NCBI RefSeq assembly: GCF_008728195.1
Contig: NZ_CP031598.1
Location: 5,084,001-5,148,000, forward strand
Direction: 5' to 3'
From: Roseovarius indicus
GTDB taxonomy: Bacteria > Pseudomonadota > Alphaproteobacteria > Rhodobacterales > Rhodobacteraceae
DNA length: 64,000 bases
The notes under the pieces are model-generated. The model made no database searches and was not told the origin of the DNA. It saw only the letters and a list, made by a program, of their open reading frames with translations. Positions 46,509 to 63,448 of this stretch are shown piece after piece. The translations under genes were made by a program, and so were the position numbers. The first letter of the stretch is position 1. Each line of letters begins with the position of its first letter.

Positions 46509-46996
46509 AAGCCAACCTCGCGCAGGATGAAATCGGCGATGGCGCCCGTGTCGTTCAGGTCGAAGACCGGCCGGTCAAGATCGAGCGCCGTGTCGGAGGC
46601 CACGGCCCGCACCGTCGGGTCATCGGTCGCAATAAGCGGGTTGCCCGTCTCGGCCCGGTGCGCCTCGACCTTGGGGTGCGCATCGCGCTTGTAGCCTTCG
46701 ACCAACACGAGGTCGACCGGCCCAAGCCGCTGCAACAGCTCCTCCAGCGTCGGCTCCTTTTCGTCGCGCAGCTCGTGCATCAGCGCGATGCGCTTGCGCG
46801 AGGCCAGCAGCACCTCGGTCGCCCCGGCAACCCGGTGGCGATGGCTGTCCTTGCCGGGCTGATCCACGTCGAACGTGTGATGCGCGTGTTTGACCGTGGA
46901 AACGGAAAATCCCCGCCCGGTGACCTCGGTCACCAGCCGCTCCATCAACCCGGTCTTGCCGGCATTCTTCCAGCCGACGACGCCGTAAAGCCTCAT
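46505..46996 (-). CDS. mobB: Molybdopterin-guanine dinucleotide biosynthesis protein MobB
   Basis: 163 residues. P-loop GTPase helping MobA: Walker A GWKNAGKTGLMERLV, then STVKHAHHTFDVDQPGKDSHRH and LVLVEGYKRDAHPK. Both starts and stops overlap neighbours mobA and the MoeA fusion by four bases. Confidence 0.93.
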   Translation of the reverse strand: MRLYGVVGWKNAGKTGLMERLVTEVTGRGFSVSTVKHAHHTFDVDQPGKDSHRHRVAGATEVLLASRKRIALMHELRDEKEPTLEELLQRLGPVDLVLVEGYKRDAHPKVEAHRAETGNPLIATDDPTVRAVASDTALDLDRPVFDLNDTGAIADFILREVGL

Positions 46997-47595
46997 GCCT
47001 GCCCCCCGGCCATTGCTTGTGCCTTGTCGAGATCCTCGGGCGTGTTCACGTTGAAGAACGGCTCGCCCGCCTCGTCGAACAGCGCCTCGCGGCCGTCATG
47101 CCGGTCGGTCCACATCACCACCTTGCGCAGCCCGTCCTGCAAAGCCGCCCGCAGATCGTCGCGCAGCGCCACGGGCCAGAGACCGAAGGTCGGCTGCCGC
47201 CCATCGGGCGTCGCGGCCAATGCGAGCGGTTGCTCCATGTCCTTCGCCGCGACTTGCAGACGCGAAACAAGGTCGTGCGGAAAGAACGGCGTATCGGCCG
47301 CCACGCTGACAACGCTCTCCGCCCCCTGCCCGGCGGCCCAGTCGAGCCCCGCCAGAACCCCGGCCAGCGGGCCGGGATAATCGGCAATGCTGTCCGGCAG
47401 CACGGGCAGGCCGAGCGCCGCGAACCTCTCCGCCTCGCCATTCGCATTGATCGCCATGCCGGCCACCTGCGGCGACAGCCGGGCAATCACCTGATCGAGA
47501 ATCGTACCCTCGCTCAAAGGCAAAAGTCCCTTGTCGCCCCCGCCCATCCGGGTGGCCTTGCCCCCGGCCAGTATCACGCCCAGTGGCTGTTTCAT
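46993..47595 (-). CDS. mobA: Molybdenum cofactor guanylyltransferase
   Basis: 200 residues. Joins GMP to molybdopterin to make MGD for DMSO-reductase-family enzymes. Nucleotidyltransferase motif LAGGKATRMGGGDKGLLPL, VAADTPFFPHDLV and PFFNVNTPEDLD. ATG 47595 starts at the motif; it overlaps the fdhD stop. Mo hydroxylases as at 54427 normally use another cofactor form, so a MocA-like activity elsewhere may be needed. Confidence 0.92.
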   Translation of the reverse strand: MKQPLGVILAGGKATRMGGGDKGLLPLSEGTILDQVIARLSPQVAGMAINANGEAERFAALGLPVLPDSIADYPGPLAGVLAGLDWAAGQGAESVVSVAADTPFFPHDLVSRLQVAAKDMEQPLALAATPDGRQPTFGLWPVALRDDLRAALQDGLRKVVMWTDRHDGREALFDEAGEPFFNVNTPEDLDKAQAMAGGQA

Positions 47596-48476
47596 GCGCC
47601 GGCACTCTTGCGGCGGTGTTTCTTGTCCTCGTCCGGCACGCTGTCGGGGTCCACGTCCCTTACCAACCGCTCTTCGCCCGCCAGGCACACGAACCTTTTG
47701 CCCCGCATCCGGCCGACCAGCGTCAGGCCCACTTCGCGCGCAATCTCCACGCCCCAGGCCGTGAAGCCCGACCGCGACGCCAGCGCCGGAATACCCATCA
47801 GCGCCGTCTTGATTACCATCTCCGACGTCAGCCGCCCGGTGGTGTAAAGCAGCTTGTCGTCCGCGCTCACCCCTTCCGAGAACATCCAGCCCGCGATCTT
47901 GTCGACCGCGTTGTGCCGCCCGACATCCTCCATGTAGACCAGCGGCTCGCCGCCCCGGCAAAGCACCGTGCCGTGAATGGCCCCCGCTTCGAGATACAGA
48001 GAGGGCGTCCGGTTGATCACAGACGCCAGTCGGTAAAGATCGGAGGTCTTCACCTTCAGGTCCGGCAGGCGCACCTGCTCCAGGCCCTCCATCATGTCGC
48101 CGAAGACCGTGCCCACGGCACAGCCGCTGGTGCGCGTCTTCTTCTTCAGCTTCTCTTCGTAATTGGTCTGCCCGTCGGTGCGCACGACGACGGTTTCGAG
48201 ATCTTCGTCGAAATCGACACCGGTCACCGTCTCGTCGGCGGCAAGCATCCCCTGGTTCCGCAGGAACCCCAGTGCAAGGTATTCCGGGTAATCGCCGATC
48301 GTCATCGCGGTGACGATCTCCTGCCCGTTCAGGAAAATCGTAAGGGGCCGCTCCTCGACCACCGCGATTTCGGCGGGCTGGCCGGCATGGTCGACCCCCT
48401 CCACCTTGCGCGTCAGCCGCGGGGCGCCCGGGTCGGGCGCGATGATGTAGGCCGGAAGATCGTCGGTCACGGGCAA
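47592..48476 (-). CDS. fdhD: Formate dehydrogenase accessory sulfurtransferase FdhD
   Basis: 294 residues. Transfers sulfur from IscS to the molybdenum cofactor of formate dehydrogenase. Blocks: EERPLTIFLNGQEIVTAM, YLALGFLRNQGM, EDVGRHNAVDKIAGW, GRLTSEMVIKTALMGIPAL and GLTLVGRMRG. Where Escherichia coli FdhD has two Cys (CxxC), here is SGCAVGT with one. A strong GGAAGGAG (48483-48490) supports the TTG start at 48476; GTG at 48470 is an alternative with longer spacing. Confidence 0.88.
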   Translation of the reverse strand: MPVTDDLPAYIIAPDPGAPRLTRKVEGVDHAGQPAEIAVVEERPLTIFLNGQEIVTAMTIGDYPEYLALGFLRNQGMLAADETVTGVDFDEDLETVVVRTDGQTNYEEKLKKKTRTSGCAVGTVFGDMMEGLEQVRLPDLKVKTSDLYRLASVINRTPSLYLEAGAIHGTVLCRGGEPLVYMEDVGRHNAVDKIAGWMFSEGVSADDKLLYTTGRLTSEMVIKTALMGIPALASRSGFTAWGVEIAREVGLTLVGRMRGKRFVCLAGEERLVRDVDPDSVPDEDKKHRRKSAGA

Positions 48477-48536
48477 TTGCAACTCCTTCCGCTTGGCGAT
48501 AGGGCAAGCGTATCGAGGGCAATCTAGGATTTTCAG

Positions 48537-51553: not shown

Positions 51554-52135
51554 TTACCGCAACCCGTCCTCGCCCTTCACCTCGTCGACGGTCAGCCCGC
51601 CCATCCGGTCATGCACCCGGCCGCCGCGCGACATGGCGAGAATAAAGAGCAACTCCCCCGCCCGCGGACCATCAGGAAGGCCCACCTCCATCGCGTCGAA
51701 ATGGCTGCGCACGTAAGCGGCGTTGATATGCCCCAGCGGCACGTCGATCCGCGTCCCCGGCCCACCCTGTTTCATCGCCGAAGGCACGATGGCCTTCGCC
51801 TCGCCCAGCCGGGCGCGCATGGCATAGCCGCCGGGGACGTGCCAGAGCGCGGTATGCTCAAGCTCGCCGCCCTCGCCCGCCATCGCCGCCTTTCCGTAAC
51901 CGTCGATCCCTTCGAGCCCGCCCATCGCCTCGATCAGGCGCTCGGTCATCATCAGCCCCAGCGGCTTGAGGTCTTCCATCGCCGGCTGCAGGTCGGCGGT
52001 ATACCCCCCGGCAAATGGGTTGGCGACCAGCGCCGCGATGGCCGCGCGGCGGCGGGGTTTGTCCGGCGCCGGGCCGCCGTCATGGTGGATGTCCTCGATG
52101 AAAAGCGCGGTCTTGCGCAGGGTGAACTCAGGCAT
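51554..52135 (-). CDS. DUF1185 (AA_synth) family protein
   Basis: 193 residues, cytoplasmic. Blocks TALFIEDIHHDGG, AIAALVANPFAGGY, IEAMGGLEGIDGYGKAA, AIVPSAMKQGGPG and HINAAYVRSHFDAMEVG are conserved in DUF1185, structurally known but without settled function; the amino-acid synthesis label comes from context in other bacteria. Last gene of the minus-strand catabolic cluster; it overlaps UPF0280 by 8 bases. A ring-opening or hydrolytic role is conceivable, not shown. Confidence 0.8.
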   Translation of the reverse strand: MPEFTLRKTALFIEDIHHDGGPAPDKPRRRAAIAALVANPFAGGYTADLQPAMEDLKPLGLMMTERLIEAMGGLEGIDGYGKAAMAGEGGELEHTALWHVPGGYAMRARLGEAKAIVPSAMKQGGPGTRIDVPLGHINAAYVRSHFDAMEVGLPDGPRAGELLFILAMSRGGRVHDRMGGLTVDEVKGEDGLR

Positions 52136-52970
52136 GGGCGGTGTCTTTCATATGTGACAGCAATTGCGGCCCGAGGCCGCGCACGACGCCGCTGAGACTG
52201 AGCAGGGCGCCCTGGATGAGGCCGCGGGCCTGAAACGTATCGGCCAGCGCGGCGCCCGCGGCAAGGGCCGCGGTGATCTCGCTGTCGGTCAGCGGCCCAA
52301 CGGCGGTGGTCACCGGCCTATCTCCAAGGTCGCTGTCGGGCGCCAGTTCGCTGGCGGGCGAGCGGATCACCGAAGGATGCCCCGGCAGGTCGACCGCATT
52401 GGCCAGCAAGGTCGCCGCCGCATCGGCCAGCGCGGCCGAGCGCGCCAATACGGTCACGCTGTCGGCAATACCCAGAGAATGACTGCGCCCGCCCCGCCCC
52501 GACGTGGCGATCCCCCGGATCGGGTCGCGCCGGCGGATCTGGATCGAACCGCCGGTGGGCGAGGCCACCGCCGCCTGCATCCGCTGCCCTTTCGCCAGGT
52601 AGAACGCGACGTCGCCACCGTTGTTGACATAGGCCTTGTCGACTCCCTCGCCGTCGCAGATGGCCGCAAGAATGGTTTCCGCCCCGGCCCCCGCCACCGC
52701 CGCCATCGGCGTGATGAAGGTCGAGGCGAAGGGAAACGTGGCCTGCACCATGCGCCGCGCAGTTTCCCCCTCGGGCATCCGGCCCTGCCGCGAGCGCAGG
52801 CGCGGCAGCTCGGCGGCCAGCTCCTCGAGCAGGGTTTCGAACCGGCGCGCCGCGCGCTGCAGGGCCGTCTCGCGCCCCGGCCCGGTCACATCGGCGATCA
52901 TGTCGATCGGCCCGTGATGCAGGTGCAGGCGCCGCCCATCGGGCAGGAAGCTGATCTGCGGGCCCGGCAT
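52128..52970 (-). CDS. UPF0280 family protein (ApbE-like fold)
   Basis: 280 residues. N-terminal FLPDGRRLHLHHGPIDMI, central FITPMAAVAGAGAETIL and VNNGGDVAFYL, and TSGRGGRSHSLGIADSVTV are the UPF0280 blocks. The superfamily is related to FAD:protein FMN transferase ApbE, so a role in flavin attachment or substrate chemistry is possible. It starts directly at the stop of the 6-hydroxynicotinate-reductase-like gene (one base shared). Confidence 0.82.
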   Translation of the reverse strand: MPGPQISFLPDGRRLHLHHGPIDMIADVTGPGRETALQRAARRFETLLEELAAELPRLRSRQGRMPEGETARRMVQATFPFASTFITPMAAVAGAGAETILAAICDGEGVDKAYVNNGGDVAFYLAKGQRMQAAVASPTGGSIQIRRRDPIRGIATSGRGGRSHSLGIADSVTVLARSAALADAAATLLANAVDLPGHPSVIRSPASELAPDSDLGDRPVTTAVGPLTDSEITAALAAGAALADTFQARGLIQGALLSLSGVVRGLGPQLLSHMKDTAHA

Positions 52971-54430
52971 CAGCCCTTGCCCCGACGCGTATCGCTGACC
53001 GCGCGGACGGCGCCGCCGTATTCGCCCCCCGTGGCCAGAACGTCGGCCACCGAGCGCACCTGTGCGTCATGCCCGCCCAGCGCGCGGTAATGCTCCCGCT
53101 CCAGCGTGAATTCCAGCGGCGCCACCAGCGCCGGCGTCGGCACGTGACCGAAGGAGCCGTCGGGCATTTTCGTGACGTCCACCATCAGGGTGATCCCCCC
53201 GCCCGGCCAGACAAAAACCGGCGCGCCGCCACAGGTGACATGCGTCTTCAGCGCCTGCACCGAGCGGGTCAGCTGAACCGGGTTCTTCGTCACGCCCGAG
53301 CGGAGAGACCCGCCCGCGCCCGCCTGGAACATCACCGTGCACAGCGCCGGCTCGCAATTCTCGGCGATCAGGTCGACGGAAGGTTTGAGCGTATCGGGCA
53401 ACGGCGCCGGCTGCGGTTCGAGGTTATCGTCGAGCACGTAATAGCCGTATTGCTCGCCCGTGGTCGAAACCATGAGCATGGTCAGCCCCGGCCGCGCGCC
53501 CTTCTTGGCCAGCCACGGGTTGAGGATGGTCAGCGGGTCTTCAATGTCCGTCCCGCCCCAGCCACGCCCCGGCTGCGCCACTTGGAAATACCGGCCGGGC
53601 GTCGAGCGGCGGCCCTTGATGCGGATGCCGGTATCGGGCCAGTCCAGCACCTTGCCCGCCTGGTGCTCGCTGACGACGCCGGTGATGTGGTCGTCGACCA
53701 CCACCACCTCGTCGACCAGCCCGTGCCATTGCGAGGCGAACATGCCGATCGTCGCCGAGCCGCAGCCGACGCGCATCCGCTCTTCGCGGTGGCCATCCAC
53801 CACCGGCGGCTGCCCCGCCTGCACCTCGACCGTGGCGCCACCGTCGATGGTCAGCTCCACCGCCTCGCGATTGCAAAGCTTCAGCAACGCATCGCAGGTC
53901 ACGCGCCCTTCCGCCTTGCTGCCGCCTGTCAGGTGTTCCACCCCGCCGAGCGACAGCATCTGCGAGCCGTATTCCGACGTCGTGACATGCCCGATCGCCT
54001 CGCCCTCGGCGCGCACGGTCGCGGCCTCGTGGCCCAGGTGCCGGTCGGTGTCGATCTTCACCTTCACGCCGCAATAGGAAAAGATCGCCTCGGTCACGAC
54101 GGTGATGAAATCGGCGCCCTCGACTTCGCGGCTGACGATGAAGGGCGCGGGCTTGTAGTCGGGATAGGTCGTGCCCGAGCCCACGCCCGAGACAAAAACG
54201 TCGTCACCGCCCACCATCTGCCCGTCCCATTCCGTCGCCATGAAAGGCCGGATCTCGCCGCCCTGTTCCACCCGGCGGTGCAGGATCGTCAGCGGATCGC
54301 ACCGCACGATGCGCCCGTTTTCATTGGCATAGCGGTCACAGGCGCCGACCTTGCCCTCGGCGATGTAGCACATGACGGGGCAGGCGTCGCAGCGGATCTT
54401 CTCCTCGGTCTGCCTGCGCTTTTCGGTCAT
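52970..54430 (-). CDS. 6-hydroxynicotinate-reductase-like iron-sulfur protein
   Basis: 486 residues. N-terminal cluster motif C14-x2-C17-x3-C21-x9-C31 (CDACPVMC, then GKVGACDRY). Further blocks: VSGVGSGTTYPDYKPAPF, YCGVKVKIDTDRHLG, HVTTSEYGSQMLSLGG, GCGSATIGMFA and CGGAPVFVWPGGGI. The closest known enzyme, Hnr of Eubacterium barkeri, reduces 6-hydroxynicotinate during anaerobic nicotinate breakdown. In this aerobic-type genome the true substrate may be another hydroxylated heterocycle made by the neighbouring Mo hydroxylase. Overlaps that gene by four bases. Confidence 0.78.
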   Translation of the reverse strand: MTEKRRQTEEKIRCDACPVMCYIAEGKVGACDRYANENGRIVRCDPLTILHRRVEQGGEIRPFMATEWDGQMVGGDDVFVSGVGSGTTYPDYKPAPFIVSREVEGADFITVVTEAIFSYCGVKVKIDTDRHLGHEAATVRAEGEAIGHVTTSEYGSQMLSLGGVEHLTGGSKAEGRVTCDALLKLCNREAVELTIDGGATVEVQAGQPPVVDGHREERMRVGCGSATIGMFASQWHGLVDEVVVVDDHITGVVSEHQAGKVLDWPDTGIRIKGRRSTPGRYFQVAQPGRGWGGTDIEDPLTILNPWLAKKGARPGLTMLMVSTTGEQYGYYVLDDNLEPQPAPLPDTLKPSVDLIAENCEPALCTVMFQAGAGGSLRSGVTKNPVQLTRSVQALKTHVTCGGAPVFVWPGGGITLMVDVTKMPDGSFGHVPTPALVAPLEFTLEREHYRALGGHDAQVRSVADVLATGGEYGGAVRAVSDTRRGKG

Positions 54431-57120
54431 CCCTGCGCCTCTCGGATCGCGGCCAGCACGCGGTGCGGCAGGGCGGGCAGCTTGGTCACCTTCGCCCCGG
54501 TGGCATGGCGGATGGCGTTGAGGATCGCCGGGGCGGTGGGGATCAATACATGCTCGCCCAGCCCCTTCAGGCCCATCGGCCCTTCCGGGTCGGGCACCTC
54601 GACGAAGATCGATTTCACCTCGGGCATGTCGCCGGTGGTGGGGATCAGGTAGTCATGCAGGTTCTCGGTGCGGCCGGGGATGTATTCCTCCATCAGCGCG
54701 AGGCCGAGGCCCTGGGCCACGCCGCCCTCCACCTGCCCCTCGGCCAGCAGCGGGTTCACCACGCGGCCAAGGTCATGCGCGGCGGTGATGCGGGTGACCT
54801 TGACGGTCCCCAGTTGGGTGTCGACCGTCAGTTCCGCCATCTGTGCGCCGAAGCCATAGACGGCATAAGGGCTGCCCTGCCCGTTCTCGTCGAGCGGGCT
54901 GGTGGGCGGGTCGTAGGTCTCTTCAGCCGCGAGGACATAGCCGTGCGCGTCGGGGGGCAGGTCGCCAAGCGTTACCTGGCGCTCGCCCCGATCGTCGGTG
55001 ACGGTCAGTGTACCGCGCTCGAGCGAAATCCGCGCGTCTTCCGCCATGTTGCTCAACGCGAGAATCCGGCCCCGCAAAGCCTGTCCCGCGAGCAGCGCCG
55101 CCTTGCCCGTCACATAGGTCTGGCGCGAGGCGGAGGTCTTGCCGCAATCGGGTGTCAGGCCGGTATCCGGGCCGATCAGGCGGAACTGCCCCACCGGCAG
55201 GCCCAGCGCATCGGCGCAGATCTGGGTAATGACGGTGTTCGAGCCCTGCCCGATATCGGTGGCGCCCTGGTGCAGACACAGCTCGCCCTTGGCGGTGATG
55301 CCGACGCGGATCGTCGAGGGGTTGGGCAGGCCGGTATTGCCGCAACCGTACCAGCAGGAGGCGACGCCGACGCCGTGGCGATAGCGGCCGCCTTGGGCGT
55401 TGGCTGTCTCGGCATTGGCCAAAGCCTCCTCCCACGGGGCCTTCAGCGCATCGAGGCAGGCCGCGATGCCGACGCCGTGCAGCACCTGTCCACAGACAGT
55501 CGACTGACCGTCCTGCAATGCATTCAGCCGGCGGAAGGCAAGCCGGTCGAGCCCGGCTTTCAACGCCAGATCGTCGTACAATGCCTCCTGCAGGATCGCC
55601 GCCTGTGGTACGCCGAAGCCCCGGAACGCGCCGGAGATCGGTTCGTAGGAATGAATCGCCCGCGCCTCGGCGGCATAGTTGGGCGTATAATACGGCCCCG
55701 ACGCATGAACCGGCACGCGTCCCGCCACCGTCGGCCCCCAACTGGCATACGCGCCCGTATTGAAATCGCCGTCGAAGATCAGGCCGGTGATCCGCCCGTC
55801 GGCATCCACCCCGGCGCGGCCCGTCATCTTCGACGGGTGGCGCTTGGTGGTCGAGGCCATCGATTCCGCGCGGGTGTAGATCATCCGTGCCGGGCGGCCC
55901 GTCTTCATCGCGACGAGGCCGATGAGGGGTTGCAACGACAGGTCGAGCTTGGCCCCGAAACCGCCGCCCGCCGCCGCCGGGATGATCCGCACCTGTTGCG
56001 GGTCGAGCCCGAGGATGCGGGCGGTGTCGTCGCGGTCCATCACCGGGGCTTGGGTGCAGGCCTGGATGACCAGCGTGTCGCCTTCCATCCAGGCCACGCC
56101 CGCCTCGGGTTCGATATAGGCGTGTTCGATATAGGGCGTCTCAGCCTGCGCCTCGGCCACGTGAACGGCATTGGCGAGGGCACCGTCTGCATCACCGCGC
56201 CGCACGACACCGGCGATCAGCAGGTTGTCGGGGCGGTTGTCATGGACGAGGGCCGTGGCGTCGGACTGCTCCCACGTGATCGGGAAAGTGGTCAGGTCGA
56301 GCGCCTCGATCACGCCCGCTTCGCCTGCCACCAGCGCCACCGCCTCGCCACGCAGGCGGGCGCGGTCCTCGGCCAGCGCGGGCTGGTCGGCGAAGGGGGG
56401 GATGGTGCCGTAGATATTGGCGCCGGGGATGTCCTTGGCGGTGAAGACATGCACCTCGCCGGGCTGGGCGGCGCGCCATGCGTCGATGTCGCCGAGGGTG
56501 AACCGGGCGGGGGCAGACGGCGCACGAACGGCCCGGACGAGCAGCGTATGCTCGGGGCAGGCATCCGCACCATAGATCTCGGTGCCGGCCACCTTGGGGC
56601 CGCCGTCGAGGCGTTCGACACGGGCGCCGACGGCATGGCCTGCCTCGGGCATCTGCGCGGGCGCACCCGGCGCGGCATCCAGCACGGCGTCGATGATCTT
56701 GGCATAGCCTGTGCAACGGCAGAGCACGCCGCCAAGAGCTTCTTCCGCCTCGGCGCGGGTCGGGTTGGGCCTGTCCTGAAGGAAGGCCGTGGCGGTCATC
56801 AGCATGCCCGGCGTGCAGATCCCGCATTGGGCTGCGCCGTGGCGGAGGAAGGCCTGCTGCAAAGCCGTCGCCTGCAACCCCTCGACCGTCTGCACGTCGC
56901 GCCCGCCCACCTGGGCAAGCGGCGTCAGGCAGGCGCAGACCGGCGCGCCATCGAGCAGCACCGTGCAGGCCCCGCAATCGCCGGCGTCACAACCGACTTT
57001 CGTGCCGCGCAGCCCCAGCCCCTCGCGCAGCACTTCCGACAGGCGCCGAGACGGGTCGGCGGGCAGCGTGAGAGGGTTGCCGTTGATCGACAGGCTTATG
57101 GTGCCGGTGGCGCGGTTCAT
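54427..57120 (-). CDS. Molybdenum hydroxylase: fused 2Fe-2S and Mo-binding subunits (xanthine dehydrogenase family)
   Basis: 897 residues. Residues 1-75 are a plant-type 2Fe-2S domain (C44, C49, C52, C64), about 80-150 the second 2Fe-2S domain (C99, C102, C134, C136), and about 165-897 the Mo domains with GGGFGAKLD, and catalytic Glu856 in GLGEHV. The layout equals Desulfovibrio aldehyde oxidoreductase, but a separate FAD subunit follows in the operon upstream. It hydroxylates an aromatic heterocycle or aldehyde with water as oxygen source. The N-terminal ferredoxin fusion is less usual when an FAD subunit is also present. Substrate unknown. Confidence 0.9.
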   Translation of the reverse strand: MNRATGTISLSINGNPLTLPADPSRRLSEVLREGLGLRGTKVGCDAGDCGACTVLLDGAPVCACLTPLAQVGGRDVQTVEGLQATALQQAFLRHGAAQCGICTPGMLMTATAFLQDRPNPTRAEAEEALGGVLCRCTGYAKIIDAVLDAAPGAPAQMPEAGHAVGARVERLDGGPKVAGTEIYGADACPEHTLLVRAVRAPSAPARFTLGDIDAWRAAQPGEVHVFTAKDIPGANIYGTIPPFADQPALAEDRARLRGEAVALVAGEAGVIEALDLTTFPITWEQSDATALVHDNRPDNLLIAGVVRRGDADGALANAVHVAEAQAETPYIEHAYIEPEAGVAWMEGDTLVIQACTQAPVMDRDDTARILGLDPQQVRIIPAAAGGGFGAKLDLSLQPLIGLVAMKTGRPARMIYTRAESMASTTKRHPSKMTGRAGVDADGRITGLIFDGDFNTGAYASWGPTVAGRVPVHASGPYYTPNYAAEARAIHSYEPISGAFRGFGVPQAAILQEALYDDLALKAGLDRLAFRRLNALQDGQSTVCGQVLHGVGIAACLDALKAPWEEALANAETANAQGGRYRHGVGVASCWYGCGNTGLPNPSTIRVGITAKGELCLHQGATDIGQGSNTVITQICADALGLPVGQFRLIGPDTGLTPDCGKTSASRQTYVTGKAALLAGQALRGRILALSNMAEDARISLERGTLTVTDDRGERQVTLGDLPPDAHGYVLAAEETYDPPTSPLDENGQGSPYAVYGFGAQMAELTVDTQLGTVKVTRITAAHDLGRVVNPLLAEGQVEGGVAQGLGLALMEEYIPGRTENLHDYLIPTTGDMPEVKSIFVEVPDPEGPMGLKGLGEHVLIPTAPAILNAIRHATGAKVTKLPALPHRVLAAIREAQG

Positions 57121-57968
57121 GCGGCGGCCTTTGCCGGTTGGGTGAGGTCGTCGATGGCCCGGCGCAGCAATTCCGCGGCGGCATGGGCGCGGTAGGGTCC
57201 ATCGGCGCGGATATCGTCGATGGGCGACAGCGCGGCGGCGACGGCCGCGTCGGTGATGTGCTGTGAGAGGCCCGAGGCAGACTGGCCCGCGAGGGTGGCT
57301 TCGAGGCGGGTCAGGCGAGTCGCCACGGCACTGCAGGCGCCCACCGCAAGCGCGGCATCGCGCACCGTGCCGCCCTCGATATCCAGCCGCACGGCGACCA
57401 TGGCGATGGAGATTACAAGGTACTTGCGGGCGCCGAGCTTGAGGAAGCGGGAGGTGCCTCGGGTGGCGGCCTCGGGGATGGTGATGGCGGTGACCAGCTC
57501 GCCGGGTTCGAGCGCGGTTTGGCGCGGACCGTTAACAAAGTGTGAAAGGGGGAGCGTGCGCGTGCCGGTGGCGGAGGCAAGCTCAACCTGAGCGTCCAGT
57601 GCCATCAGGCAGGGCATGCCATCGGCCGCCGGCGACGCGTTGCAGATATTTCCGGTCACCGTGCCGGAATTCTGAATTTGCACCGACCCAACTTCGCGCG
57701 CCGCCTGTTTCAGCATGTCGAAAGCGGGCGGCAGGTCGGCGCGGATCACGTCGGTCCAGCTTGTCGTGGCGCCGATGCGGATTCCACTTTCGTCACGGCT
57801 GATCCCCCGCAACCCGGGAATGCCGGTGATGTCGAGCACAGGCCCGGTCAGCGTGCGGGCCTGCGTGGCCGGGAACAGGTCTGTGCAGCCCGCGGCGATC
57901 GTGACTGGCCTCTCCGCCAGCACGTCGAGCGCGCCCTGCAGCGTGTCGGGCCGGTGATAGGCGGCCAC
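57117..57968 (-). CDS. FAD-binding subunit of the molybdenum hydroxylase (CoxM/XdhB family)
   Basis: 283 residues. FAD site motifs TIAAGCTDLFPA and TVTGNICNASPAADGMPCLMALDA, plus the C-terminal CoxM-type domain. It carries electrons from the 2Fe-2S centres to NAD or another acceptor. GTG start at 57968 follows GGGAGAG; upstream codons are non-conserved. Overlaps the large subunit gene by four bases. Candidate operator repeats lie just upstream. Confidence 0.88.
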   Translation of the reverse strand: MAAYHRPDTLQGALDVLAERPVTIAAGCTDLFPATQARTLTGPVLDITGIPGLRGISRDESGIRIGATTSWTDVIRADLPPAFDMLKQAAREVGSVQIQNSGTVTGNICNASPAADGMPCLMALDAQVELASATGTRTLPLSHFVNGPRQTALEPGELVTAITIPEAATRGTSRFLKLGARKYLVISIAMVAVRLDIEGGTVRDAALAVGACSAVATRLTRLEATLAGQSASGLSQHITDAAVAAALSPIDDIRADGPYRAHAAAELLRRAIDDLTQPAKAAA

Positions 57969-57982
57969 GTGTCTCTCCCTGT

Positions 57983-58038
57983 CTGTCTTTCTGGCGGGAT
58001 GGTGCGGCACCCGCGAAAGACAGTCAACACAAAGACAG
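57983..58038. promoter_or_regulatory. AAAGACAG repeats upstream of the molybdenum hydroxylase genes (candidate operator)
   Basis: CTGTCTTTC (57983-57991) is the inverse of GAAAGACAG (58015-58023), and AAAGACAG recurs at 58031-58038, 15 bases on. A minus-strand TTGACT (58022-58027) could be a -35 box between them, with no good -10 found. Lies in the 161-base gap between livF and the FAD-subunit gene. Confidence 0.45.
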
Positions 58039-58129
58039 GATCGCGCCGAGGCCGGAAGCATGCGGGAAATGTTTAACGGAACTCTTTCAGGGGCGTGCGA
58101 ATGGAAATCGGGCAGACCGCAACGCGCCG

Positions 58130-58825
58130 TCAGACACCCACGTAACGGTCGACGATACTGTGATCCTGCCGCAGCGCCTCGGCCGGGAGAACCTCTCCGT
58201 TCCGCCCGTTCTCGATAAACGCCACCCGGTCGGCAACGGAAAGAACCGCATCGACCCGCTGTTCCACCAGCAGGATCGCGACGCCCGCCGCACGCATCCT
58301 GACGATCACCTGCCGTATCGCCTCGATCATCGAGGGTTGCAGGCCCTCCGTCGGTTCGTCGAGCAACAGCGCCTTGGGGCGCAGGCAGAGCGCGCGGGCG
58401 GTGGCCAGCATCTGCTGCTCGCCACCGGAAAGGGTTTGCGCCTTCTGGTCCATCCGTTCGCGCAGGCGGGGGAAGAGGTCGAGCACCTCTTCCTGCACGT
58501 CCTTGCCCGAGCCGCGCACGCGAAGGCCGATTTCGAGATTTTGCGCCACGGTCAGGCCAGAGAACAACCGCCGCCCCTGCGGGATGTAGCCGATCCCGTG
58601 TCGCGGCACCTCGTGCGGGGGCAGTTGGCTGACGTCTGTGCCGTCCAGCACCACGCGGCCCGACATCAGCGGCAGCAGCCCCATGATCGCCTGCATCGTC
58701 GTCGTCTTGCCCGCCCCGTTGCGGCCCAGAAGGCAGAGGATCTCGCCCGCTTCGACCTTCAGCGACAGGTCCCGCAGCACCTGTGCCCGGCCATACCCCG
58801 CGTTGACGGCATCAAGCTCCAGCAT
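58130..58825 (-). CDS. livF: Branched-chain-type ABC transporter, ATP-binding protein LivF
   Basis: 231 residues. Walker A LLGRNGAGKTT, signature LSGGEQQMLATARAL, Walker B ALLLDEPTEGL. LivF-type ATPase of HAAT importers, which move branched-chain amino acids, urea, amides and many aromatic acids. It ends one base before livG. Likely imports the substrate of the cluster. Confidence 0.9.
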   Translation of the reverse strand: MLELDAVNAGYGRAQVLRDLSLKVEAGEILCLLGRNGAGKTTTMQAIMGLLPLMSGRVVLDGTDVSQLPPHEVPRHGIGYIPQGRRLFSGLTVAQNLEIGLRVRGSGKDVQEEVLDLFPRLRERMDQKAQTLSGGEQQMLATARALCLRPKALLLDEPTEGLQPSMIEAIRQVIVRMRAAGVAILLVEQRVDAVLSVADRVAFIENGRNGEVLPAEALRQDHSIVDRYVGV

Positions 58826-59533
58826 TCATCCCGTCCCCAGATAGGCCGCCTGCACGGCGTCGTTTTCGTGAATCTCCTGCGGCGTGCCCTCGGCCAGCAC
58901 CTCGCCGAAATTGAGCACGGTGACGCGATCGGCGGTTTCCATGACCACGCTCATGTTGTGCTCGATCAGCAGGATCGTCGCCTCGGACGAAAGCTCGCGG
59001 ATCAGCGCCTTGAAGGCGTCGATCTCGCTGTCGGCGAGGCCTTGGGTCGGCTCGTCGAGGATCAGCAGGCGCGGGTGTTGGACAAGGCCCATGGCGATCT
59101 CAAGCAGGCGCTGGTGACCATAGCTGAGGTTGCCGGCCTCCTCGTCACGGCGGTCGAGCAGGCCAACGCGGTTGAGCGCATCGTCGACGGCTTCCTCTAC
59201 CGCGTCGCCCTGCAACCGGCGGCGGGCAGCCAGCGCGACGTTCTCGGCGGCGGGGAGGCGGGCGAAGACCGAAGTAATCTGGAACGTGTAGGCCATGCCG
59301 CGCAGGATACGTTTATGGGCGGGCAGCGCGGTGATGTCGGCATTGTCGAACTGCACCGTGCCGGAAGACGGCGGAATGCGCCCGCAGATCATGCCCACCA
59401 GCGTCGTCTTGCCAGCCCCATTGGGGCCGATGAGCGCGCGCACCTCGCCCTCGTTCAGGTCGAAATCGACATCTGTAACGGCCTGCAGCCCGTCGAAATG
59501 CTTCGACAGGCCCCGGGTGGAGAGCAGCGTCAT
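58826..59533 (-). CDS. livG: Branched-chain-type ABC transporter, ATP-binding protein LivG
   Basis: 235 residues. Walker A LIGPNGAGKTT, ITSVFARLPAAENVALAA, signature LSYGHQRLLEIAMG, Walker B LLILDEPTQGL. ATG 59533 begins at the domain start; earlier codons lie within livM. Four-base overlap with livM. Confidence 0.92.
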   Translation of the reverse strand: MTLLSTRGLSKHFDGLQAVTDVDFDLNEGEVRALIGPNGAGKTTLVGMICGRIPPSSGTVQFDNADITALPAHKRILRGMAYTFQITSVFARLPAAENVALAARRRLQGDAVEEAVDDALNRVGLLDRRDEEAGNLSYGHQRLLEIAMGLVQHPRLLILDEPTQGLADSEIDAFKALIRELSSEATILLIEHNMSVVMETADRVTVLNFGEVLAEGTPQEIHENDAVQAAYLGTG

Positions 59534-60474
59534 GGCAACCACCCCCAGACCCGGCGGCGCAGCTCGCCCGTCAGGCCCTGCGGCGCGAAGAGGGTGAGCA
59601 GCACCAGCGCCACGCCGACGATCAGCAGGTAGGCGGTGGTCACGCCCGAGCTCAGGTCGATCAGGTAGAACATGAAGAGTGTGCCGACGAAGGGGCCAAG
59701 CACCGTCCCTGCCCCGCCCAGCAGCACCCAGAGCAGCGGGAAGATCGAGTACTGCACACTGGCGAAACTCGCCCCGGCATAGCCGAAGAGCAGGCCATAG
59801 AACGCCCCCCCCGCCGCCGAGACCGTGCCCGAGACGACCATCGCCGCCAGCTTGTGGGCGAAGGTGTTGTAGCCCAGCATCCTGACCCGCTCCTCGTTCT
59901 CGCGGATCGCCACCAGCGTCTTGCCGAAAGGCGCGCGGATGAGGCGGAGGCAGAGCAGGAGGCAGACAGCGAACAGACCCCACGCCGCGAAATACCGGTT
60001 GGTCGGGTCGCTGAGGTCGATGCCCCAGAGCATCCGGTCGGCCGCCTGGATGACAAAGCCCTCGTCGCCCCTTGTGTATTCGCCGAAATAGAGGATCGTG
60101 AGGTAGCCCGCCTGCGCGAACATCAGCGTGACGATCAGGAAGGCCACCCCGGTGGTGCGCAGGGCCAGTAGCGCCAGACCGGCGGCCACGATGGCGCCGG
60201 CGAGAATGCCCACGATCAGCGCGGGCGCAGGGGTGAAGCCCGCGTGCTGGATGGTCAGGCCCATGCCGTACATGCCGGCGGCAAAGAACAGCGCGTGGCC
60301 GAGGCTCAGGAGGCCGGTGTAGCCGAAGAGGATGTTGTAGCCCACCGCATAGCTGGCCAGCACCATGATCCGGGCGAGGTTGCCGTGGTGATAGGCGGGC
60401 AGCACGAATTGCAGCGCGAAGAGCACCGCCAGCAGGCCCAGATGCAGCACGAGGGTCTTTGCCGTCGCACTCAT
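59530..60474 (-). CDS. livM: Branched-chain-type ABC transporter, permease LivM
   Basis: 314 residues, about eight to ten membrane helices. Seen: YNILFGYTGLLSLGHALFFAAGMY and ENEERVRMLGYNTFAHKLAAMVVSG, the LivM EAA-like loop, and GGAGTVLGPFVGTLF. Forms the channel with LivH. Overlaps livH and livG by four bases. Confidence 0.92.
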   Translation of the reverse strand: MSATAKTLVLHLGLLAVLFALQFVLPAYHHGNLARIMVLASYAVGYNILFGYTGLLSLGHALFFAAGMYGMGLTIQHAGFTPAPALIVGILAGAIVAAGLALLALRTTGVAFLIVTLMFAQAGYLTILYFGEYTRGDEGFVIQAADRMLWGIDLSDPTNRYFAAWGLFAVCLLLCLRLIRAPFGKTLVAIRENEERVRMLGYNTFAHKLAAMVVSGTVSAAGGAFYGLLFGYAGASFASVQYSIFPLLWVLLGGAGTVLGPFVGTLFMFYLIDLSSGVTTAYLLIVGVALVLLTLFAPQGLTGELRRRVWGWLP

Positions 60475-61397
60475 GCCGTGCGCGTCCCGAAAAGGCCCTG
60501 TGGGCGGAAGACCAGCACGAGACCCACCAGAAGCGTGGCGAGGATCTTGGCCAGCGTGGGCGAGAAGAAGACCGAGATGATGCCGTCGGACAGCCCGATG
60601 AAGATGGCGGCCACGACGGTGCCGGGCAGGCTGCCCAGCCCGCCGATGATGACGACGATGAAGCTAAGGAGCAGTGGGTCGGCCCCCATAAGGTAATGCG
60701 CCTGCTGGATCGGCACGATCAACACGGCGGCCAAGGCCGCCAGCGCCGCGCCGATGCCGAAGACCAGCGCATAGACCCGCTCGACCGGGATGCCGAAGGC
60801 CAGCGCCATGTCACGGTCGGCCTGCGTGGCCCGCATCAGCAGGCCGATCCGCGTGCGCGCCATCATCAGCCAGACGCCGACCAGCACCACCGCCGCGGCA
60901 CCGATCACGGCCAGCTTGTAGGATGTCGTCGACAGGCCCCAAGGGAAGTAGAATTCGAACCCTTCCTCGCCCCATTCGAACCACGGCAGCGCGATGCGCT
61001 GGTTGAATGGCGCCTCGACGGGCCGCGCCTCGGGGCCATAGGTCATGAGGGTCAGTTGCTGGATGATATACAAGAGGCCGATCGTGGCGACGATGGTCCG
61101 CTCGGGGTCGTAGTCCAACCGCTTGAGGATGGTCATGTCGGCCGCCGCCGCGATGGCGCCCACGAAAAGCGGGGCGACAACCAAAGCCGCCACGAAGCCC
61201 AGCGCCGGATGCCCGCCCATGGAATGCGCCACGTACCAGGCGATCACCGCGCCCAGCATGAAGAATTCGCCATGCGCGATGTTGACGACCCGCATGACCC
61301 CGAAGACAAGGCTTAGCCCCACGGCCGTCAGCGCAAGCACCGCCGCCGTGACCGCGCCTTCGAGCGAGGCCAGAAGAATGTAGGGACCCAGTTCCAT
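60471..61397 (-). CDS. livH: Branched-chain-type ABC transporter, permease LivH
   Basis: 308 residues, about eight membrane helices. LTAVGLSLVFGVMRVVNIAHGEFFMLGA and LMRATQADRDMALAFGIPVERVYA are LivH signatures, GGLGSLPGTVVAAIFIG near the C-terminus. ATG 61397 starts the first helix; no clear ribosome-binding site. No periplasmic binding-protein gene is found with this livHMGF set, which should be sought elsewhere in the genome. Confidence 0.92.
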   Translation of the reverse strand: MELGPYILLASLEGAVTAAVLALTAVGLSLVFGVMRVVNIAHGEFFMLGAVIAWYVAHSMGGHPALGFVAALVVAPLFVGAIAAAADMTILKRLDYDPERTIVATIGLLYIIQQLTLMTYGPEARPVEAPFNQRIALPWFEWGEEGFEFYFPWGLSTTSYKLAVIGAAAVVLVGVWLMMARTRIGLLMRATQADRDMALAFGIPVERVYALVFGIGAALAALAAVLIVPIQQAHYLMGADPLLLSFIVVIIGGLGSLPGTVVAAIFIGLSDGIISVFFSPTLAKILATLLVGLVLVFRPQGLFGTRTA

Positions 61398-61453
61398 GTT
61401 GCGCCAAGGATTGCCCTCCCGTTCGGCCGAGGGCAAGCGAAATGGCAGGCGAA

Positions 61454-62200
61454 TTACTGGCGCAGGGCGGGAAGGCCTATTCCGGTGGCTTCAAAGCCGC
61501 CATCGACGGCGATCACCTGCCCCGTGACATAGCTGGCGCCGGGCGAACAGAGGAAGGTGATGACGCTGGCGATCTCGTCTTCCGAGCCGTAGCGGTTCAG
61601 CGGGATCGCATCGTGATAGGCGTCGATGATCGCCTGGCTGTGCACCGCCATCGCCAGCTTGGTGCGCACCGGGCCGGGGCAGACGCAGTTGGCGCGAATG
61701 CCCTTTTCGCCCAATTCCACGGCCTGTTGCTGCGTCAGCGCCATGACGCCCGCCTTCGACGTGCCATAAGCCACCCTGAGGGTCGAAGCGCGCAAGCCCG
61801 AGATCGAGGCGATGTTGACGATGGCGCCCTTGGCAGCGGCAAGCGCGGGCGTCAGCGCCTGCGTCATCAGGAAGACACCGTCGAGATTGGTTTCCATCAC
61901 CGTGCGCCAGCGGTCGAAGCCCGTCTCGGCGATGGGCCCGAAATCGGCGACGCCGGCATTGTTGATCAGGGCATCGACGCTTTCGCAGGTGTCCTCCACA
62001 TGGCGCGCCATCGCCGCAACCTGATCGGGCTTCGAGACGTCGCACACCACCGGGTCGACATCTGTCAGTTTGCCGGCCTCCTCCATCAAGACCGGCGCGT
62101 CGCGATCGATCATGACGACGCGCCAGCCCTGCTCCAGAAACTGCTTGGTTGCGGCCAGCCCGATCCCCCGTGCCGCGCCCGTGACGATGGCGGTTTTCAT
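61454..62200 (-). CDS. Short-chain dehydrogenase/reductase
   Basis: 248 residues. Cofactor motif TGAARGIGLAA, NNAGVADFG, catalytic SIS...YGTSK (Tyr-x3-Lys) and CVCPGPVRTKL. NAD(P)-linked alcohol/ketone step. ATG 62200 follows GGAGGAG. It is first in the minus-strand run ahead of livH, probably co-transcribed with the transporter; divergent from the M20 gene across 99 bases. Confidence 0.9.
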   Translation of the reverse strand: MKTAIVTGAARGIGLAATKQFLEQGWRVVMIDRDAPVLMEEAGKLTDVDPVVCDVSKPDQVAAMARHVEDTCESVDALINNAGVADFGPIAETGFDRWRTVMETNLDGVFLMTQALTPALAAAKGAIVNIASISGLRASTLRVAYGTSKAGVMALTQQQAVELGEKGIRANCVCPGPVRTKLAMAVHSQAIIDAYHDAIPLNRYGSEDEIASVITFLCSPGASYVTGQVIAVDGGFEATGIGLPALRQ

Positions 62201-62299
62201 CCCTGTCTCCTCCCGTACAGATGCCGGCACACGCTAGCGCCGGGGTGCTTGAGCGCAAGGTCATAATCCCGCAGGGTGGCCGGGAACAGGAGGCACGAC

Positions 62300-63448
62300 A
62301 TGGACGGATCGGTGAACGAGATGATCGGCTGGCGGCAGGACTTTCACCGCCATCCCGAACTGGAATTCGACCTGCCGCGCACCAGCGCCCGCGTGGCCGA
62401 GCTGCTGGAAAGCTTCGGGCTGGAGGTGCATCGCGGCATCGGGCAATGCGGCGTCGTGGGCGTGCTTCAACGCGGCAACGGGCCGAGGAGCATCGGCATC
62501 CGCGCTGATATGGACGCGCTGCCGATCGACGAGACGAACGGGGTCGCCCACCGCTCGGAGACGCCGGGCAAGATGCATGCCTGCGGCCATGACGGGCATA
62601 TGGCGATGGCGCTTGGCGCGGCAAAGCAACTGGCGGAAAACGGGGCGTTCTCGGGCCGGGCGGTGTTCATCTTCCAGCCGAACGAGGAACACGGCCACGG
62701 CGCGCGGGCGATGATCGACGACGGGCTGTTCGACCGCTTCCCGGTCGACCGGGTCTACGGGCTGCACAACATGCCGGGGCTGCCGCTGGGCCACGTGGCG
62801 ACGCGGGCCGGGCCGATCACGGCGAGCGAAGCGCTGTTCGAGATCGTCATCGCGGCGCGCGGCGGGCATGCGGCGCTGCCGCATATGGGCGTGGATGCGA
62901 TCACCGTGGGGGCCGAGGTGGTGGGTGCCTTGCAGACCATCGTGTCGCGCAAGCTCGATCCGGCGATGAACGGCGTCGTCTCGGTCACCGGGTTCGAGAC
63001 GGACGGGGCGCGCAACGTGCTGCCGGGCCGGGCATGGCTGACCGGCGATTGCCGGGCGCTGACGCCGGAGGTGAACGACCGGATCGAGACGTCGATGCGG
63101 CGGATCGTCGATGGCATCTGCGCCGCGCACGAGGTGGGGGCGACCGTGGGCTACGAGACGATCTTCCCCCCGACGATCAATGACGCGGACGCGGTCAAGG
63201 CCGCCGCGCGGGCGGCGGACGGCGTGGCGGACAAGGTCGATGCCGACTGCGCGCCAAAGCTGTTCTCGGAGGATTTCGCCCATATGGCGGGCGCCGTGCC
63301 GGGGGCGTTCCTGTTGCTGGGCAACGGCACCGAAGGCAGCCATGCGCGGCCACTGCACTCAGCGGATTACGACTTCAACGACGCGGCTTTGGAGACAGGC
63401 CGGGCGCTTTGGGTTGCGCTGGTGGAGCAGGAATTGCGGGCGGACTAG
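62300..63448 (+). CDS. M20-family amidohydrolase (hippurate-hydrolase-like)
   Basis: 382 residues. Zinc peptidase/amidohydrolase: HRHPELEFD, IRADMDALPI, HACGHDGHMAMALG, FIFQPNEEHGHGARAM (catalytic Glu-Glu) and FSEDFAHM near the end. Hydrolyses N-acyl amino acids or similar amides. AGGAGG at 62288-62293 fixes the ATG at 62300. Divergent from the SDR and probably shares control with that cluster, perhaps cleaving an amide made during heterocycle breakdown. Confidence 0.9.
   Translation: MDGSVNEMIGWRQDFHRHPELEFDLPRTSARVAELLESFGLEVHRGIGQCGVVGVLQRGNGPRSIGIRADMDALPIDETNGVAHRSETPGKMHACGHDGHMAMALGAAKQLAENGAFSGRAVFIFQPNEEHGHGARAMIDDGLFDRFPVDRVYGLHNMPGLPLGHVATRAGPITASEALFEIVIAARGGHAALPHMGVDAITVGAEVVGALQTIVSRKLDPAMNGVVSVTGFETDGARNVLPGRAWLTGDCRALTPEVNDRIETSMRRIVDGICAAHEVGATVGYETIFPPTINDADAVKAAARAADGVADKVDADCAPKLFSEDFAHMAGAVPGAFLLLGNGTEGSHARPLHSADYDFNDAALETGRALWVALVEQELRAD

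Follow-up and report, generated by a model that had tools for sequence, protein, structure and literature searches.

An enamidase-less variant of a probable reductive nicotinate gene cluster in Roseovarius indicus, with a HyuAB-type lactamase as candidate ring opener

How would a bacterium whose genes suggest that it hydroxylates and then reduces nicotinate open the reduced ring if the enamidase of the known pathway is missing? The question is raised by a 64,000-nt stretch of Roseovarius indicus DNA (the window; G000:C1:5084001-5148000, within a 6.17-Mb genome), in which positions 51554-62200 hold ten genes, all on the minus strand. In transcription order these encode a short-chain dehydrogenase/reductase (SDR), the LivH, LivM, LivG and LivF components of a HAAT importer, the FAD subunit and the fused FeS-Mo subunit of a molybdenum hydroxylase, a protein resembling 6-hydroxynicotinate reductase (HNR), which the hydroxylase adjoins at 54427-58061, a UPF0280 protein and a DUF1185 protein (Table 1). 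The last five predicted genes, from the FAD subunit to DUF1185, overlap by 1-8 nt and thus look like one operon. We consider it reasonably likely that this cluster imports nicotinate and degrades it through a version of the reductive pathway in which something other than enamidase opens the ring; nicotinate derived from nicotinamide is probably used as well.

The route itself has precedent. Aerobic reductive breakdown of nicotinate has been reported for Azorhizobium caulinodans and proposed for Bradyrhizobiaceae SG-6C, with a cluster that includes a transporter and two unknown proteins (PMC3511419), plausibly UPF0280 and DUF1185. Both 1,4,5,6-tetrahydro-6-oxonicotinate (THON) and the bifunctional enamidase of Eubacterium barkeri that yields 2-formylglutarate have also been described (PMC9304392). 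Hydroxylase, HNR, ABC transporter and two accompanying unknown proteins are thus common ground between these systems and the window, and what is new here is an HNR in a genome without enamidase, which carries a CapAB/HyuAB-type lactamase elsewhere. A preliminary description of the locus had placed the Mo hydroxylase, the HNR-like protein, UPF0280, DUF1185, the SDR and the HAAT importer together on one strand, where all were indeed found, and had proposed that an N-heterocycle is taken up and degraded by being first hydroxylated and then reduced, which we judge right. Its suggestion of an undescribed pathway does not survive the earlier reports from aerobes, and it overlooked both the absence of enamidase and the presence of HyuAB outside the window.

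In the R. indicus genome no protein matched enamidase at E <= 1e-20, with all 15 candidates scored. The cluster of many relatives includes an amidohydrolase, and the one used as a query matches the E. barkeri enamidase 2vun over its full length (E 4.8e-109); in some enamidase-less clusters its place is taken by a hydantoinase/oxoprolinase pair, HyuA and HyuB. We searched for HNR in 398 genomes from the phylum and in 40 relatives (the window genome is counted in both), and it was present in 32 and 19, respectively. Absence of a gene is judged at the cut-offs given, related genomes inflate the counts, and the phylum scans scored only the best candidates per genome (2 for HyuA, 4 for enamidase, 6 for UPF0280 and 3 for HNR). 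All candidates were scored in a set of 57 genomes, comprising 50 with HNR and 7 of the window's genus without it. Enamidase occurs in 23 of these and a HyuA orthologue (at least 61% identity) in 28, with both in only 2 (G123 and G194); the sole HNR genome with neither ring opener is G399, which is 76% complete, and the 7 HNR-negative genomes have neither. The same pattern holds in the phylum sample, where enamidase and HyuA are each found in 17 of 398 genomes (15 and 15 singly, 2 with both), their union accounts for 32 of 32 HNR genomes, and none of the 366 HNR-negative genomes carries either at the cut-offs used. The next-best matches outside reach at most 47% (HyuA-like) and 42% (enamidase-like). 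Genome and plasmid cut-offs were 60% for both proteins, the genome cut-offs being chosen after the gaps from 47 to 61% (HyuA) and 42 to 64% (enamidase) were visible, and locus cut-offs were 50% for HyuA and 45% for enamidase.

The alternation extends across genera and replicons. Among 16 HNR genera, 8 are of the HyuA type, 7 of the enamidase type and 1 is mixed (exact test, P 0.0014). Neighborhoods were read with reference proteins at the HNR loci of the sampled genomes and at 80 named loci (the best 80 of 587), and of the latter 31 have HyuA, 15 have enamidase and none has both. On 26 HNR plasmids we found enamidase in 16 and HyuA (at least 60%) in 10, with no plasmid having both or neither, although 12 of the 26 are from Sulfitobacter and they are therefore not 26 independent events. 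The series HNR-UPF0280-DUF1185-DUF1185 runs in register in Rhizobium lusitanum and R. etli 8C-3; next comes HyuA-HyuB in R. lusitanum and enamidase in R. etli 8C-3. On an HNR tree built from 129 rows by a quick method, with 32 of its 126 inner branches open (35 rows without a label and 2 with both were dropped), the HyuA and enamidase labels change at least 11 times over 92 labeled rows, and two genomes of the window's genus, G408 and G411, fall in an enamidase-bearing HNR group yet carry HyuA. The shared slot, the repeated label changes and these two genomes together give a picture of what looks like non-orthologous replacement at one step, and in the window genome a HyuAB lactamase seems to replace enamidase. 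This would be a clean example of an enzyme that has repeatedly given way, at a single step, to an unrelated enzyme that uses ATP. In G123 and G194 the enamidase gene sits in a separate DUF1185-DUF1185-enamidase-MarR module with no HNR nearby (L235 8456-11417 and L236 8276-11245).

Members of the HyuAB/CapAB family consume ATP in opening lactams (PMC8453981), and THON is a lactam, which by analogy makes it a candidate substrate. The closest PDB matches are N-methylhydantoinase 7hk5 for HyuA and caprolactamase 6yra for HyuB, with which the R. indicus proteins share the two-subunit HyuA/HyuB architecture. The metal ligands of CapB are given as D41, H99, D101 and H124 (PMC8453981); in an alignment with 6yra_B, inspected by eye, HyuB has D, H and H at D41, H99 and H124 and also an Asp at the HILD-motif Asp, which we count as 102 in 6yra_B. 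Unlike CapAB, the R. indicus pair falls below the caprolactamase cut-offs and is genomically tied to HNR. Some records label HyuA of this HNR-tied group acetophenone carboxylase or N-methylhydantoinase, annotations that our reading would correct. An M20 peptidase at 62276-63448 was rejected as the ring opener: it matches general amidohydrolase/M20 models only, lies on the other strand and is unshared in the locus table.

Nicotinate is suggested as the substrate by nicotinamidase, by NicB and by the enamidase-bearing relatives. A PncA-type nicotinamidase gene is present in 13 of 129 HNR loci (9 HyuA-type, 2 with both ring openers and 2 enamidase-type; a single family supplies 9 of the 13), in L166 between HNR and UPF0280, and the five proteins tested all scored above the NCBIfam cut-off. 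In Neorhizobium NCHU2750 a gene with the annotation nicB shares a 20-kb interval with fpr, livKHMGF, a MarR gene, hnr, UPF0280, two DUF1185 genes, hyuA and hyuB. Ferredoxin-NADP reductase-like genes, a plausible electron source for HNR, stand beside HyuA in f10 loci and occur in 5 of the 7 plasmid stretches read. HNR itself matched no Pfam or NCBIfam family in searches of the window proteins; its close relatives carry the NCBI name 6-hydroxynicotinate reductase (a named one at up to 88% identity), and the best organism-named relatives are from Roseovarius.

The core of FAD subunit, Mo subunit, HNR, UPF0280 and DUF1185 recurs across HNR loci, 24 of 129 of which have no DUF1185. UPF0280 directly follows HNR in 114 of 130 loci, more than chance would give (10 are further apart, 5 too near a contig end for a judgment and 1 without it). 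The preliminary description had named lack of conservation as an observation that would count against it; the cluster is conserved, and that objection falls away. Its gene set held for this core and not for the SDR, whose group occurs in 2 of 52 loci, with a match of at least 45% in 0 of 80 named loci, and which we rejected as a pathway member. UPF0280 is present in exactly the same 32 of 398 phylum genomes as HNR, and DUF1185 is found in 30 of 31 HNR genomes tested versus 11 of 49 without HNR.

The predicted structure of UPF0280 has the fold of ApbE FMN transferases, and the structural matches that stand clear of background are confined to ApbE-type FMN transferases and the UPF0280 homologue 2o34, the uncharacterized Desulfovibrio protein DVU1097 (DUF375/UPF0280). 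From the predicted fold and the co-occurrence, UPF0280 is probably the flavinyltransferase of HNR, with attachment probably at the invariant Thr381. It would differ from the ApbE/Ftp/FmnB transferases in having no Pfam family and in having a cytosolic Fe-S reductase as its proposed target, and it may serve as a marker for more flavinylated enzymes.

DUF1185 appears to have a wider range. Two or more copies are present in 21 of 36 enamidase-labeled loci versus 5 of 56 HyuA-labeled loci. Nine HNR-less plasmids encode remote enamidase-like proteins (38-44%); DUF1185 is the gene immediately before the amidohydrolase in five of them (Thermomicrobium, Shinella, Mesorhizobium, Mariluticola and Agrobacterium vitis), and in the other four none is annotated within 5 kb of it; the family thus accompanies ring-opening hydrolases and not HNR alone. 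We take its chorismate-mutase-like fold to be shared with RidA/RutC deaminases, and our guess is that DUF1185 is a deaminase of the enamine product, with a decarboxylase as the alternative. Against the deaminase idea, the E. barkeri enamidase is itself bifunctional (PMC9304392), yet enamidase loci are the richer in DUF1185 copies. The structures 3byq and 2qtp are full-length homologues (E 1.5e-53 and 7e-47), for which a chorismate-mutase-like fold was described and amino-acid metabolism was suggested from ABC-transporter neighbors (PMC2954203); here, the family accompanies HNR and also enamidase-like or HyuAB ring openers. In A. vitis (L252 4399-8206), Mariluticola (L251 4404-7448) and Thermomicrobium (L245 2035-6179) DUF1185 and the enamidase-like amidohydrolase are found with an FAD-dependent monooxygenase or a Mo hydroxylase, and these modules possibly represent other undescribed N-heterocycle pathways. 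The window genome has three DUF1185 copies; the two outside the cluster (L111 3583-7662 and L112 8081-11364, at ~0.64 and ~3.24 Mb) each lie beside an aldehyde dehydrogenase and a member of one shared ORF group, this member being a luciferase-like monooxygenase in L112.

From the gene content and its conservation, the co-occurrence of HNR and UPF0280, the mutual replacement of enamidase and HyuAB and the predicted ApbE fold, all of them matters of sequence and prediction, we infer a nicotinate substrate and the following reactions. The acid would be taken up by the HAAT importer and converted to 6-hydroxynicotinate by the Mo hydroxylase; HNR, matured by UPF0280 through the attachment of flavin, would reduce this to THON; the two-subunit, ATP-dependent lactamase HyuAB would open the THON lactam; and 2-(aminomethylene)glutarate would lose ammonia, perhaps aided by DUF1185, to give 2-formylglutarate, which would then follow the glutarate route. 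As a tentative joint reading, possible rather than probable as a whole, UPF0280 would be a cytosolic, HNR-dedicated branch of flavinyltransferases, the HNR-tied HyuAB a new ATP-dependent 6-oxo-tetrahydronicotinate lactamase that repeatedly replaces enamidase, and DUF1185 would process the ring-opened product, as an enamine deaminase resembling RidA/RutC (or as a 2-formyl-acid decarboxylase), and would also serve other heterocycle pathways where it precedes enamidase-like amidohydrolases. In this way, two proteins that had been noted next to an established vitamin B3 pathway but left unexplained would acquire testable roles.

Several observations weigh against parts of this scheme and have to be set beside the alternatives. 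In the window genome, 0.28 Mb separates the cluster from HyuAB, which is on the same contig but outside the window; HyuAB is within the HNR cluster in 8 of 28 HyuA-type genomes; 34 of the 80 named loci show neither ring opener, their flanks being short or the gene perhaps lying elsewhere; and seven plasmids carry HyuA (at least 60%) with no HNR on the same plasmid (six from Sinorhizobium medicae, one from Rhizobium rhododendri), HyuAB adjoining DUF1185 on both that were inspected. HyuA and HyuB score 491 and 306 bits against NCBIfam caprolactamase equivalog cut-offs of 1000 each, and by that measure fall short of caprolactamase proper. The distance from HNR and the HNR-less plasmids would suit a role for HyuAB at another step, on a later lactam or a side product, with ring opening in HyuA-type strains being spontaneous or due to an unseen enzyme; the near-perfect either-or pattern of HyuAB and enamidase, and their use of the same gene slot, make this highly unlikely. 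PncA-type enzymes, moreover, also cover pyrazinamide: the PncA model includes pyrazinamidase, and pyrazinoate therefore remains a candidate substrate. Together with the existence of HyuA-type genomes that lack enamidase, this favors the same enzyme logic applied by HyuA-type clusters to another azine carboxylate (pyrazinoate, isonicotinate or picolinate) whose reduced lactam is closed to enamidase. We think this decidedly unlikely, because the ring opener changes while HNR remains in one group, even inside the window's genus and Rhizobium, the window's fused hydroxylase type accompanies enamidase in 22 loci, and a NicB-type hydroxylase occurs together with HyuAB in L078, L239 and L240.

For the accessory proteins, UPF0280 matched none of the Pfam families, ApbE included, at E <= 0.001; in structural alignments it is only ~14-20% identical to ApbE-type proteins, which it resembles in predicted overall fold. 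It might instead be another HNR partner, such as a chaperone, subunit or flavin carrier, which we regard as unlikely with some real chance of being correct, since ApbE-type transferases and 2o34 alone rise above background and the E. barkeri HNR presumably carries a covalent flavin. The remaining alternative assigns the operon to branched-chain amino acid metabolism, following an earlier proposal for DUF1185, and draws on the HAAT transporters that adjoin DUF1185 both here and in PMC2954203. It was rejected as scarcely credible: that metabolism has no known use for a Mo hydroxylase, HNR or nicotinamidase, and DUF1185 is concentrated in HNR genomes.

Table 1. Genes of the cluster (window positions) and of the distant HyuAB pair (genome positions)
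Feature	Position	Strand	Support
DUF1185 (AA_synth) protein, 193 aa; suspected role in ring opening or deamination	51554..52135	-	PF06684 218 bits, cut-off 27; 3byq_A E 1.5e-53
UPF0280 protein, 280 aa; proposed flavinyltransferase of HNR	52128..52970	-	NF003322 335 bits, cut-off 290; predicted ApbE fold; same 32/398 genomes as HNR
HNR, 6-hydroxynicotinate reductase-like, 486 aa; N-terminal CxxCxxxC and C31; invariant Thr381 as proposed flavin site	52970..54430	-	Named relatives, sequence
Fused [2Fe-2S] and molybdopterin large subunit, xanthine-dehydrogenase-family hydroxylase, 897 aa; proposed nicotinate 6-hydroxylase	54427..57120	-	PF00111, PF01799, PF02738 225 bits, PF20256 234 bits; 3hrd (nicotinate dehydrogenase) chains among PDB matches
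FAD subunit of Mo hydroxylase; real start possibly downstream of 58061	57117..58061	-	PF00941 155 bits, PF03450 56 bits
LivF-type ATPase, HAAT importer	58130..58825	-	PF00005 113 bits
LivG-type ATPase, HAAT importer; start approximate	58826..59569	-	PF00005 118 bits, PF12399
LivM-type permease	59530..60474	-	PF02653 126 bits
LivH-type permease; ORF open to 61436, ATG start at 61397	60471..61397	-	PF02653 130 bits
SDR oxidoreductase; not a conserved cluster member; start 62200	61454..62200	-	PF13561 224 bits
HyuA, window genome	~G000:C1:4855953-4858007 (L129:9954-12008)		Hydantoinase_A PF01968 291 bits
HyuB, window genome	~G000:C1:4858007-4859740 (L129:12008-13741)		Hydantoinase_B PF02538 519 bits

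The HAAT (LivKHMGF) importer is represented in the cluster by two permeases and two ATPases, with no substrate-binding protein among the ten genes; a binding protein encoded at G000:C1:321492-322772 shares 86% identity with the one from a sister cluster. Next to the HAAT binding protein lies a conserved protein, at most ~460 aa long, in L139 (10434-11810), L092 (18990-20000) and L234 (10850-11860); it has no Pfam family, the L092 piece has no NCBIfam family, and the pair adjoins HyuAB in three genomes. The HNR-less HyuAB-DUF1185-MarR modules of S. medicae pMl3 (L242 8986-19483) and R. rhododendri (L254 8017-14482) have no HNR nearby, and the neighbors of the former include an isochorismatase-family hydrolase, two nucleoside hydrolases and an ABC transporter, a setting that would suit feeding on a pyridine nucleoside. 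At window positions 46993-48522, a few kilobases from the Mo hydroxylase operon, translations resemble by eye the molybdenum-cofactor proteins MobA and FdhD. The HNR at G016:C1:2969808-2971234 is split over two reading frames, by a frameshift or an assembly error. Mesoflavibacter is a Bacteroidota name, and the HNR cluster in a chromosome so titled (L167, CP051228.1) has proteobacterial relatives around it; the record is probably mistitled.

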